Source of the DNA: Streptomyces mirabilis
GTDB lineage: Bacteria; Actinomycetota; Actinomycetes; Streptomycetales; Streptomycetaceae
NCBI RefSeq assembly: GCF_018310535.1
Contig: NZ_CP074102.1
Location: 1,860,001 to 1,924,000 of the forward strand
DNA: 64,000 bases
Direction: 5' to 3'
The notes under the pieces were generated by a model. It saw nothing but the letters and a program-made list of their open reading frames with translations. It was not told the DNA's origin and made no database searches. The first letter of the stretch is position 1, and each line of letters starts with the position of its first letter. This document shows, piece after piece, positions 29,801 to 32,800 of the stretch. Position numbers and translations under genes: made by a program.

Positions 29801-32800
29801 GCCGCCCGGGCAGGACTCACGGTGCCCGTCCGGGACCTGTTCCGGGCGCGCACGGTGGCCCGCCTCGCCCCGGCCTGCGGCACGGGGGCGCCGGACGGCC
29901 CGGCTCACGCATCGCCGTTGCCCGACCCGCTGCCCGCCGAAGAGCTGGCGACGCTGCTCGCCGACCCGGACACCGAGCAGGTGCTGCCGCTGACACCGCT
30001 GCAGGAAGGCCTGCTGGTGCACAGCGCGTTCGCGACCGGCGACCGCGACGTGTACACGGTCCAGTTGCGGCTCGACCTGCACGGCGACCTCGACGCCGAC
30101 CGGCTGCGCGCCGCGCTCGACACGGTGCTCGCCCGGCACCCCGTGCTGCGCTCCGCCGTCCTGCACGAGGGCCTGCGCCGGCCGGTGCTCGCGGTACGCC
30201 GCGCGTGCACGGTGCCGTGGCGCACGTACGACCTGCGCGGCCGCGAGGACGAGGCGGACCGCGCCGCGCGCACCGAGCGTGACGAGCCGTTCGACCTCGC
30301 CACCGCGCCCCTCCTGCGCGCCGCGCTGCTGCGCCTCGACGACGGTCACCGGATCCTGCTGACCTGCCATCACCTGGTGCTCGACGGCTGGTCGGTGCCG
30401 ATCGTGATCCGGGAGACGCTGCGCGCCTACCGGGGCACGTCCCCGGGCCCCGATCCGCGCCCGTACCGCGACCACCTCGTCTGGCTGGCCGGCCGCGACC
30501 GGGAGGAGTCCCTCGCCGCGTGGTCGCGGGCGCTGGCCGACGCACGGCCCACGCTCGTCGCCGCACCCGTCGAGCAGCCCGCCCAGACGGTCCCGGTCCG
30601 CCTCGAGCGCGAGCTGGACGCCGGGACGACCCGGCTGCTGGAGTCGCGCGCCCGCGAACTCGGCGTGACCGTCAACAGCCTGGTGCAGGCCGCCTGGGCG
30701 GTGGCGCTGCGTACCCTCACCGGACGCGACGACGTGCTCTTCGGCATCACGGTGGCCGGACGCCCGGCCGAACTGCTCGGCGTCGAGGACATGGCCGGCC
30801 TGTTCATCAACACCGTGCCGCTGCGCGCCCGCCCCGACACGGCGAGGACACTCGCCGAACTGGCCCGCGACATCCAGGACGGTCAGGCCGACCTGCTGGC
30901 CCACCAGCATCTGCCCCTGGTCGACATCCAGCGCGCGGCCGGTGTCCCGAACCTGTTCGACACGCTCGTCATCTTCGAGAACTACCCGGTGGACCGCGAC
31001 GCGATCAACGCCGCCGCGGACGCCACCGGACTCGCCCTCGCCGACGCCGACCTGACCGACGCGACCCACTATCCGCTGACCCTCTCCGCGGTGCCCGGCG
31101 AGCGCCTGCTGGCCCGGCTCGCCTGCCGCCCGGGGCAGTTCGCCGTGGCGGCGGCGGCCGAGCTGCTCGACCGGTTCGCAGAGGTGCTCGCACGTGCCGC
31201 CACCGCCCCCGGCACCCTGGTCGGCGACATCGGCCCGCAGCCGGCCGCCCCGGCCCCGCAGGCGCACAAGGACCGGGACGACCGGGTCGAACTCCACGGC
31301 TTCCGGTTCGGCCTGGCGGCTGTCGAGTCGGCGCTGTCCGCCCACCCCGGCGTGGTGCGCGCGGCCGCCACCGTTCGCGAGGACCTGCCCGGCGAGCGCC
31401 GTCTGGTCGGCTACGTCGTGCTGCGCGACGGCACCGACGCGGCCGAGGTGCGCGGATTCGCCGCGCAGTCGCTGCCCGGCTACATGGTGCCGTCCGTGGT
31501 GGTCGGCATGGACACGATGCCGGTCGGACGGTCCGGCGCGGTGGACCGCCGGGCGCTGCCCGTGCCCGTGGGCCCGTCCGCGGCCGGCCGTCGGCCGCGG
31601 ACGGCGGACGAGGAGCTGCTGTGCGGCATCTTCGCCGAGCTGCTGGGCGTCGAACGGGTGGGCATCGACGACGACTTCTTCTCCCTCGGTGGTGACAGCG
31701 TCCTCGGGTTCCGACTGCTGAGCCGGGCCCGCGCCGCCGGTCTCACCTTCGGCTTCCGGGACGTGTTCGACCGGCGTACCGTCGCCGGACTCGCCGAGGT
31801 CCGCGGACACCAGGAGGAGCCTCGTCCACTGCGGTCCGTCGCGCCGCTGCCCGAGGGGGAGCTGAACGGGCTGCTCGCCGAGCCGGGCGTCACCGACGTC
31901 CTGCCGCCGGCCCCGAACCAGGAGGGGCTGCTCTTCCTCCACACCTACGACGACGCCGAAAGCGACCCCTACACCCTCCAGCTGGTGCTCGACTTCGCGG
32001 GCGCCCTGGACCCGGCGCGGCTCCGGGAGGCGTTCGCCCGCGTGCTCGGCCGGCACGAGGCGCTGCGGGCCGGCTTCCGCACCGCCGCCTCGCAGCGGCC
32101 GGTCCAGTGCGTGCACGAGGCGCCCGAGGTACCTGTGCGCGAGGCCGATGTGCCGGACGACGCCGCCGTCGCCGCCTTCCTGGACGAGGACAGGGCGACC
32201 CGCTTCGACCTGTCCACACCCCCGCTGCTGCGCGCGGCCGTCCTGCGGCGGCCGTCCGGCTCCTGCACGCTCGTCCTGACGATGCACCACATCGTCGTGG
32301 ACGGCTGGTCGCTGCCGATCGTCGTACGTGACCTGCTCGGCGCGTACGCCGGAGCGGCACCGCTCGAGCCCGCCCCGCCCTACCGCGACTACCTGGCCTG
32401 GCTCGCGTCCACCGACACCCGGGCCTCGGTGGAGGCTTGGCGCACCGCGTTCGCCGACGTCACCGAGCCGATGCACGTCGCCGCCGAGCGCACCACCCAG
32501 GTCGTCGAGCCGGTGCGCCACGCCTATGTGTTCGACCGCGCCGAGACGGCGGCCCTGGTGGCGGCGGCCCGTGCCCGTGGCGTCACCGTGAACACCATGG
32601 TCCAGGCCGCCTGGGCGACCGTGCTGCGCCGGCTCACCGGCCGGGACGACACCCTGTTCGGGGTCACCGTGGCGGGCCGCCCGGTCGATCTGCCGGGATC
32701 CGCGGACATGGTCGGCCTGTTCATCAACACGGTCCCGCTGTCGGTGCGGCTCGACCCGCGCGAGAGCCTCGCGGAACTCGTCGGCCGACTCGGTCGGGAG

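Follow-up and report, generated by a model that had tools for sequence, protein, structure and literature searches.

Introduction

In the fungal fusarinine synthetases SidD and Nps6 the truncated A domain of module 2 lacks ~290 residues, and the A1 domain of SidD loads both T1 and T2, past the truncated A2 and with the same monomer (PMC10192304). The ferrichrome synthetase Sib1 of S. pombe possesses a degenerate second A domain, and its Gly-specific A1 was inferred to charge further units in cis (PMC2644324). In capreomycin biosynthesis CmnA-A1 loads the A-less CmnI (PMC12400406), and in the ramoplanin, enduracidin, syringomycin and albicidin systems a module with a missing or dead A domain is complemented by a stand-alone [A-T] (PMC8949500). 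These descriptions are those given in excerpts of the four articles.

The window analysed here, a stretch of 64,000 nucleotides from Streptomyces mirabilis, contains two NRPSs, and module 2 of the first, NRPS1, was originally predicted to have lost the core of its A domain and to keep a decayed stub. We describe the module, its relatives and its probable mode of loading. The results favour, with a probability of roughly 0.7, a reading in which module 2 is a working Gly module: A1 would charge both PCP1 and PCP2, and the leftover C-terminal subdomain of A2 (Asub) would serve as a spacer or platform.

Architecture of module 2

The features of the region are collected in Table 1. A Pfam search of module 2 (29954-31906) returned Condensation, AMP-binding_C (PF13193, positions 2-75 of 76) and PP-binding, together with a weak PapA_C match below its cut-off, and no AMP-binding core. 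When the strain's own genome was searched with PF00501, nine A cores were recovered in the two NRPSs, four in NRPS1 and five in NRPS2, and no match was found between 29227 and 33242. Both searches bear out the predicted absence of the A core, and the reading frame is open throughout module 2, again as predicted. Module 2 is C2 followed by a whole Asub and PCP2, without an A core.

Table 1 Features of the NRPS region, with positions in the window
Feature	Position	Strand	Description
Flavin reductase	26089..26658	-	S. griseosporeus and S. coelicoflavus have a homologue (50-54 %) at the far end of their clusters
NRPS1 open frame	26567..44059	+	C1-A1-T1-C2-stub-T2-C3-A3-T3-E-C4-A4-T4-C5-A5-T5-E
C1	26864..28156	+	Starter-type condensation domain, assigned from its position and own clade (Pfam, tree)
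A1 core	28202..29356	+	Gly by code (DILQLGMVWK); putative loader of PCP1 as well as PCP2
A1 C-terminal subdomain	29357..29641	+	A8 and A10 (NGKLDRR) intact
PCP1	29669..29881	+	Pfam and domain annotation
C2	29981..31201	+	HHLVLDG at 30368-30388; DCL type, clusters with C domains downstream of E domains
C2-to-stub linker	31202..31276	+	Site of the missing A2 core (alignment with intact relatives)
Stub	31277..31561	+	Complete A2 C-terminal subdomain (Asub) from the hinge (PF13193, alignments, model)
A8 remnant of stub	31286-31309	+	
A10 remnant of stub	31532-31552	+	Lys lost
PCP2	31595..31801	+	PF00550; LGGDSVL at 31685-31705, pantetheine serine at ~31697-31699
C3	31898..33136	+	HHIVVDG at 32285-32305; DCL type despite the absence of E in module 2
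NRPS2	44016..60620	+	C6-A6(Asp-like), C7-A7(Gly), C8-A8(Pro-like), C9-A9(Gly), C10-A10(Pro-like)
MFS exporter	60675..61970	+	Conserved in both relatives' clusters (S. griseosporeus, S. coelicoflavus)
Luciferase-like monooxygenase	61992..63032	+	85-86 % identical in both relatives (S. griseosporeus, S. coelicoflavus)
TauD-type dioxygenase	63074..64000	+	Cut by the window end; S. coelicoflavus copy 82 % identical and itself Pfam-matched

In an alignment with three intact relatives, module 2 had a length of 607 residues compared to 978, 978 and 983, and the gap opened in the C-A linker and closed at the Asub hinge. The missing part is thus ~370 residues, slightly less than the ~380 first estimated. 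The ~100 residues that had been recognised as the end of an A domain are indeed kept; they are not a ragged end, but the whole Asub from the hinge onward. The sequence match of the stub to GrsA PheA (1amu) begins at chain residue 430, which we take to be the hinge. In place of the motifs GFRIExGEIE and NGKLDRR, the stub has 10 other residues (letters not shown) and SGAVDRR, respectively.

An AlphaFold2 model of the stub together with PCP2 (mean pLDDT 89.8, pTM 0.66) folds the stub as an Asub, and the structures matching it are Asub-PCP structures of NRPSs. Since the alignment behind the model consists mostly of intact Asub-PCPs, the model speaks for foldability: it suggests that the stub can fold as an Asub, and says no more.

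The E domains of NRPS1 appear as partial C matches in the domain annotation and form a clade of their own in the tree. The open frame begins ~100 residues ahead of C1 (26567-26864), and the true start of NRPS1 is probably somewhat downstream of 26567.

Distribution and conservation of the core-less module

Relatives of module 2 were taken from two protein searches, as the best 120 of 845 and the best 120 of 678 matches, ranked by likeness, so that the counts given here are not population frequencies. Among the best 120 of 845, ten 90 %-clusters (P0005-P0014) cover 95-98 % of the query, and the remaining 110 cover 65-79 %. The ten clusters stand for 128 member sequences, and the junction was read in the ten representatives, all of which carry it with the C-stub-PCP order; with the window there are 11 such stub-bearing NRPSs. 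A scan of genome contigs gave two loci (L004 and L005) that match from the C2 tail via the stub into PCP2, and a further case of the junction was found in genome G392 (locus L115). Drawn samples of 392 genomes from the genus and 394 from the family contained two and three carriers of the junction, respectively, the strain's own genome included; the third family carrier (G527) is very probably S. griseosporeus again and no new case. A DNA search of 295 genus genomes matched 294 of them, generically, and one of the 20 returned loci was core-less, namely that of the window itself. The 23 C-Asub-PCP arrangements collected comprise the 11 proteins, six further copies of these or of the window (L004, L005, L084, L105, L110, L114), the locus of G392 and five others.

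The comparison of homologous clusters, which had been proposed as a check of the junction, showed it in 10 of the 10 NRPSs aligning across it, and agrees with the suggestion of an old deletion rather than a recent assembly collapse. An assembly artefact was ruled out by the identical junction in other genomes.

The motif drift noted in the stub is real. The A10 Lys is missing in all 11 stub-bearers, SGAVDRR being the form seen in the window, whereas intact Asubs have K in 946 of 952 cases (5 gaps, 1 R). At the A8 GxR[I] position, I or V occurs in 944 of 952 intact Asubs and F in 11/11 stub-bearers. The 952 control Asubs are those spanning most of the domain, from 1039 intact Acore-Asub pairs. 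In a second control of 948 intact Asubs, with the window's own left out, 28 Asub columns are at least 85 % uniform; 14 of these are kept in all 11 stubs and four are lost in all, i.e. Q4 (mostly alignment gaps), K6 and G15 in the hinge/A8 region, and the A10 lysine. K6 is changed to E and G15 to A in every stub, and Gly9 and Arg11 of A8 are kept in every stub.

The share of invariant columns among the 11 NRPSs was 0.43 in C2, 0.41 in the stub, 0.50 in PCP2, 0.57 in the A1 core, 0.71 in the intact A1 Asub and 0.22 in the C2-stub linker. The mean pairwise identity was 0.76 for the stub compared to 0.90 for the A1 Asub. The dN/dS values of six pairs from four genomes, obtained by the Nei-Gojobori method on GC-rich DNA and good only for comparing domains, were 0.23-0.60 for the stub, 0.30-0.52 for C2 and 0.11-0.35 for PCP2, and in each of the six pairs the lowest of the three values was that of PCP2. 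Because its share of invariant columns (0.41) is close to that of C2 (0.43) and well below that of the A1 Asub (0.71), the stub appears to be held about like C2 and less tightly than a working Asub. It thus seems constrained and not simply decaying. The original description as a decayed stub did not hold, since the stub is present in all 11 NRPSs aligning across the junction, with dN/dS within the range of C2 and half of the near-invariant Asub columns (14/28) kept throughout; the lower share of invariant columns compared to the intact A1 Asub is the part of the observations that speaks for it.

Plain decay of module 2 was ruled out by the constraint on the stub, C2 and PCP2. An assembly collapse or a dying pseudo-module is hardly credible as an explanation, even if, in the window, the stub has moved slightly further away from the other stub-bearers than C2 has (mean identity 0.62 compared to 0.68) and the window-L115 pair has a dN/dS of 0.60 for the stub and 0.40 for C2, because the junction recurs in ten more 90 %-clusters as well as in other genomes, the frame is open and dN/dS is below 1 in 6/6 pairs.

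The PCP2 serine and the HHxxxDG motifs of C2 and C3 are kept in 11/11 stub-bearers. With the serine kept and the lowest dN/dS of the three pieces, PCP2 appears functional, as had been predicted. Skipping of module 2, in which acyl-Gly1 would pass from PCP1 straight to C3 and residue 2 would not exist, is distinctly improbable. The DCL-type C3 would take a Gly1 donor, but a skipped module should erode, and the active-site motifs of C2 and PCP2 are kept in all 11 NRPSs and PCP2 has the lowest dN/dS in every pair. The relaxed constraint on C2 and PCP2 that is expected of a skipped module was not found among the 11 stub-bearers or in the six dN/dS pairs.

The A10 Lys is needed for adenylation only. 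It is very unlikely, albeit conceivable from the pattern of losses, that Asub2 has remained an active half-enzyme that works with the A1 core in the thioester-forming half reaction on PCP2 only, the A10 Lys being dispensable. Such an Asub2 would be a thiolation-only subdomain: the A1 core would adenylate with its own Asub and swap to Asub2 for delivery to PCP2. In its favour, Gly9 and Arg11 of A8 are kept and the A10 Lys is lost in all 11 stubs, and among the 50 matches shown for the stub-PCP2 model the top TMq values belong to thiolation-state LgrA (5es8_B 0.81, 6mg0_A 0.80). However, further A8 positions (K6, G15) are changed in all 11, and the geometry of the model may be that of the intact Asub-PCPs which dominate its alignment. 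If true, a thiolation-only Asub2 would mean one A core with two Asubs, each escorting its own carrier.

Intact relatives and the former specificity of module 2

For A-code annotation 32 proteins were picked by hand, the 11 stub-bearers and 21 others. Seven of the others agree with the stub-bearers in the order of the first modules and possess a complete module 2 (P0015, P0020, P0025, P0123, P0124, P0125 and P0152, the last showing five modules only). The A2 code is Gly in 7/7 of these relatives. The A1 code is Gly in all 11 stub-bearers, and among the seven intact relatives it is Gly in three and of a different type in four, all four of which retain the A2 core. The A2 core thus appears to be missing only where A1 has an equal code, a pattern that rests on one event, as the stub-bearers form one group. 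The Gly readings follow code tables, for which the LpmC record (P0127), taken to be that of laspartomycin, offers a rough control: its A codes alternate between Gly and Asp.

Three of the intact relatives, P0020 (Micromonospora sp. NPDC048894), P0025 (Actinoplanes sp. NPDC020271) and P0015 (Streptomyces sp. NPDC048337), have two Gly modules in succession. Like the window they possess the early module order, related C2, PCP2 and C3 domains and a Gly A1; unlike the window they have an A2 core, with the code DILQLGMVWK or DILQLGLIWK. In the likeness ranking, the two best intact-module matches of PCP2 were module 2 of P0020 and of P0025, both Gly, and these two proteins share their architecture with the stub-bearing NRPSs. 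The nearest Asubs to the stub (BLAST) were a mixed set without a single substrate, and it was the intact relatives alone that decided for a former Gly specificity of module 2.

The stub-bearers occupy one side of a 100/100 branch in an unrooted tree, and their A1 is orthologous to the A1 of P0020 and P0025 (100/99); the A1 of P0015, in contrast, is not. The A2 cores of the intact relatives do not form one clade, and A1 and A2 of P0015 are mutual sisters, so A cores have been exchanged within the family, Gly for Gly. Tandem PCPs follow A3 in 8 of the 11 stub-bearers (P0005-P0011 and P0013), and a single PCP is present in P0001, P0012 and P0014.

Loading of PCP2

Charging in trans by another A domain or a stand-alone ligase, or skipping, had been named as the options for PCP2. 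They are narrowed by the intact relatives, which have Gly at module 2, the same as the neighbouring A1.

No stand-alone amino-acid A domain was found in the three clusters examined, i.e. those of the window genome, S. griseosporeus and S. coelicoflavus; in all three a fatty-acyl-ligase-like protein was the sole free AMP-binding protein. In the PF00501 search of the strain's own genome nothing but this ligase was matched in the vicinity of the NRPSs, the next matches being 167 kb before NRPS1 (acyl-CoA-ligase-like) and 643 kb after the ligase. On the 1.0-Mb contig of S. griseosporeus all 13 PF00501 matches are in the cluster, as 12 NRPS A domains and the ligase. The 776-kb contig of S. coelicoflavus has two matches outside the cluster, ~35 kb and 451 kb before the NRPSs, the nearer being an acetate-CoA ligase. 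A stand-alone A gene was accordingly dropped as a candidate: the two outside proteins viewed were this acetate-CoA ligase and the acyl-CoA-ligase-like protein.

It is unlikely that PCP2 is charged by an A domain other than A1, be it A7 or A9 of NRPS2 or one elsewhere in the genome. A7 and A9 are Gly by code, the genome has 63 PF00501 matches in all, and complementation by a stand-alone [A-T] is known for ramoplanin and enduracidin in the cited part of the literature (PMC8949500). Against this, the cluster of the window genome and those of the two relatives are without a stand-alone amino-acid A domain, and A1 is the nearest A domain, in the same chain, with a Gly code in all 11 stub-bearers.

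In the tree, which carries a long-branch warning, C2 and C3 fall into a group (99/96) with two domains located behind E domains, C4 and C6; modules 1 and 2 have no E domain. The DCL type of C2 and C3 may fit Gly donors. In the same tree, subject to the same warning, the C domains downstream of Gly7 and Gly9 are of the LCL type, and therefore the C-domain type alone is ambiguous and gives no clean read-out of a Gly donor.

On balance A1 would be the likeliest loader of PCP2, being on the same chain and having kept its Gly code throughout. We infer the loading of PCP2 by A1, the loss (not gain) of the core and the platform role of Asub. In the reading preferred here, the ancestor of module 2 would have been an ordinary C-A(Gly)-PCP module adjoining another Gly module. 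As A1 and A2 had equal specificity, the A2 core would have been dispensable, and a single clean loss may have removed everything between the C-A linker and the hinge that joins A core and Asub, with the product unchanged. A1 would adenylate Gly for two carriers, PCP1 and PCP2, and charge them within one chain or from one chain to another. C2 would couple acyl-Gly1 to Gly2, and C3, of a type accepting D or achiral donors, would hand the chain to Asp3. The leftover Asub, with its A10 Lys gone, would no longer be catalytic; it would be kept as a folded spacer or platform holding PCP2 at the proper distance. Residue 2 would still be Gly.

The surrounding gene cluster

The A codes of positions 1-5 in the window are Gly, none, Asp-like, aromatic-like and, for position 5, one without an assigned residue; those of positions 6-10 are as in Table 1. 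The C-terminus of NRPS2, read by eye, is thioesterase-like. Further downstream are a BTAD regulator, a sensor kinase, ABC and FtsX export genes and a type II thioesterase, as well as an AMP-binding protein, two acyl-CoA dehydrogenases, an ACP and MbtH. S. griseosporeus and S. coelicoflavus have most of the downstream genes next to their NRPSs as well, in an identical order, the ACP being outside the comparison. The AMP-binding protein, a relative of which has a DIP2-like domain, can be read as a fatty-acyl-AMP ligase. Because of the starter-type C1 and the downstream gene set, the NRPS line looks like a lipopeptide line.

The lines of the relatives G295 and G296 have 13 modules on three proteins, compared to 10 on two in the window. 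The Thr module is absent from the window line, whose last module is Pro-like; the relatives have three other modules at this place. At 19072-26168 on the minus strand, divergent from the NRPS, is a set resembling one for an NIS siderophore, with two synthetases of the IucA/IucC type and one class III aminotransferase. The two members of this set that entered the comparison (22056-24020 and 24261-26168) had no match in the 85-kb stretches of the relatives. Another NRPS region of the same genome (G000:C1:9068965-9076582) is near the contig end. Its A domains are partial matches in separate open frames, and the region appears frameshifted or eroded.

Comparison with known systems

Retention of a stub had been called unusual, which is only partly right. 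Five further C-Asub-PCP loci occur in the fetched set, and the dA of the fungal SidD, as described in excerpts of its report, is a published parallel (PMC10192304). One of the five loci, L052:5116-5652 of Streptomyces sp. yr375, on a short contig, has a C domain, a full Asub and a PCP, no core, and no A10 Lys (PEGETDHA); it is apparently an independent case. The other four, all actinobacterial (L023:6974-7384, L045:3590-4000, L048:2478-2912 and L069:7934-8368), have a C domain, half an Asub with the A10 Lys retained and a PCP, and represent a second kind of A-less module. In addition, 13 C-PCP neighbours in which Asub was not detected were present in the fetched set (in P0118, P0019, P0028, L012, L021, L026, L030, L033, L036, L044 and L053), some of which may be other layouts.

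The core-less line is shared by at least 11 synthetases, any two of which are more than 10 % apart. It seems to be a natural engineering experiment, in which adjacent modules had equal specificity, one A core was removed and the line stayed under selection. As intact and core-less forms coexist, the reach of one A domain to two carriers and the need for Asub are directly testable. Residue 2 would escape structure predictors that derive each residue from one A domain.

Compared with SidD and Nps6, module 2 of the window likewise has a truncated A domain. The fungal dA keeps more of it, ~290 N-terminal residues being gone, whereas in the window the whole core is gone and only Asub is kept. SidD makes a fungal siderophore and its loading by A1 has been shown, as far as the cited excerpts go; the window would encode a bacterial lipopeptide line with an A-domain remnant and a proposed loading by A1, and is likened to SidD by its architecture. 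Sib1, according to the parts of its report cited here, shares the degenerate second A domain and a Gly A1 as inferred stand-in; it differs in being fungal, and its authors deduced the charging from product and architecture (PMC2644324). CmnA-A1/CmnI, like VioA-A2/VioI, is a bacterial example of an A-less module charged by the A domain of another module. CmnI stands apart as a T-C protein of its own, whose N-terminal extension is disordered, and the cited excerpts mention no remnant of an A domain in it (PMC12400406); module 2 of the window, unlike CmnI, is in the same chain as its proposed donor and has kept Asub. The ramoplanin group, in the portions of the source used, likewise has long lines in which one module is devoid of a functional A domain, but there a separate A-T supplies the residue, and none was found in the three clusters examined here.

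The logic of inter-module loading is already known. What is seen of it in the present family is a module without an A core, with the PCP serine and the HHxxxDG motifs kept in 11/11, and with specificities that match by code (A2 Gly in 7/7 intact relatives, A1 Gly in 11/11). New in comparison with the open-access literature searched is a bacterial in-line case, with a clean excision of the core, a conserved Asub without its lysine, and intact sister lines.
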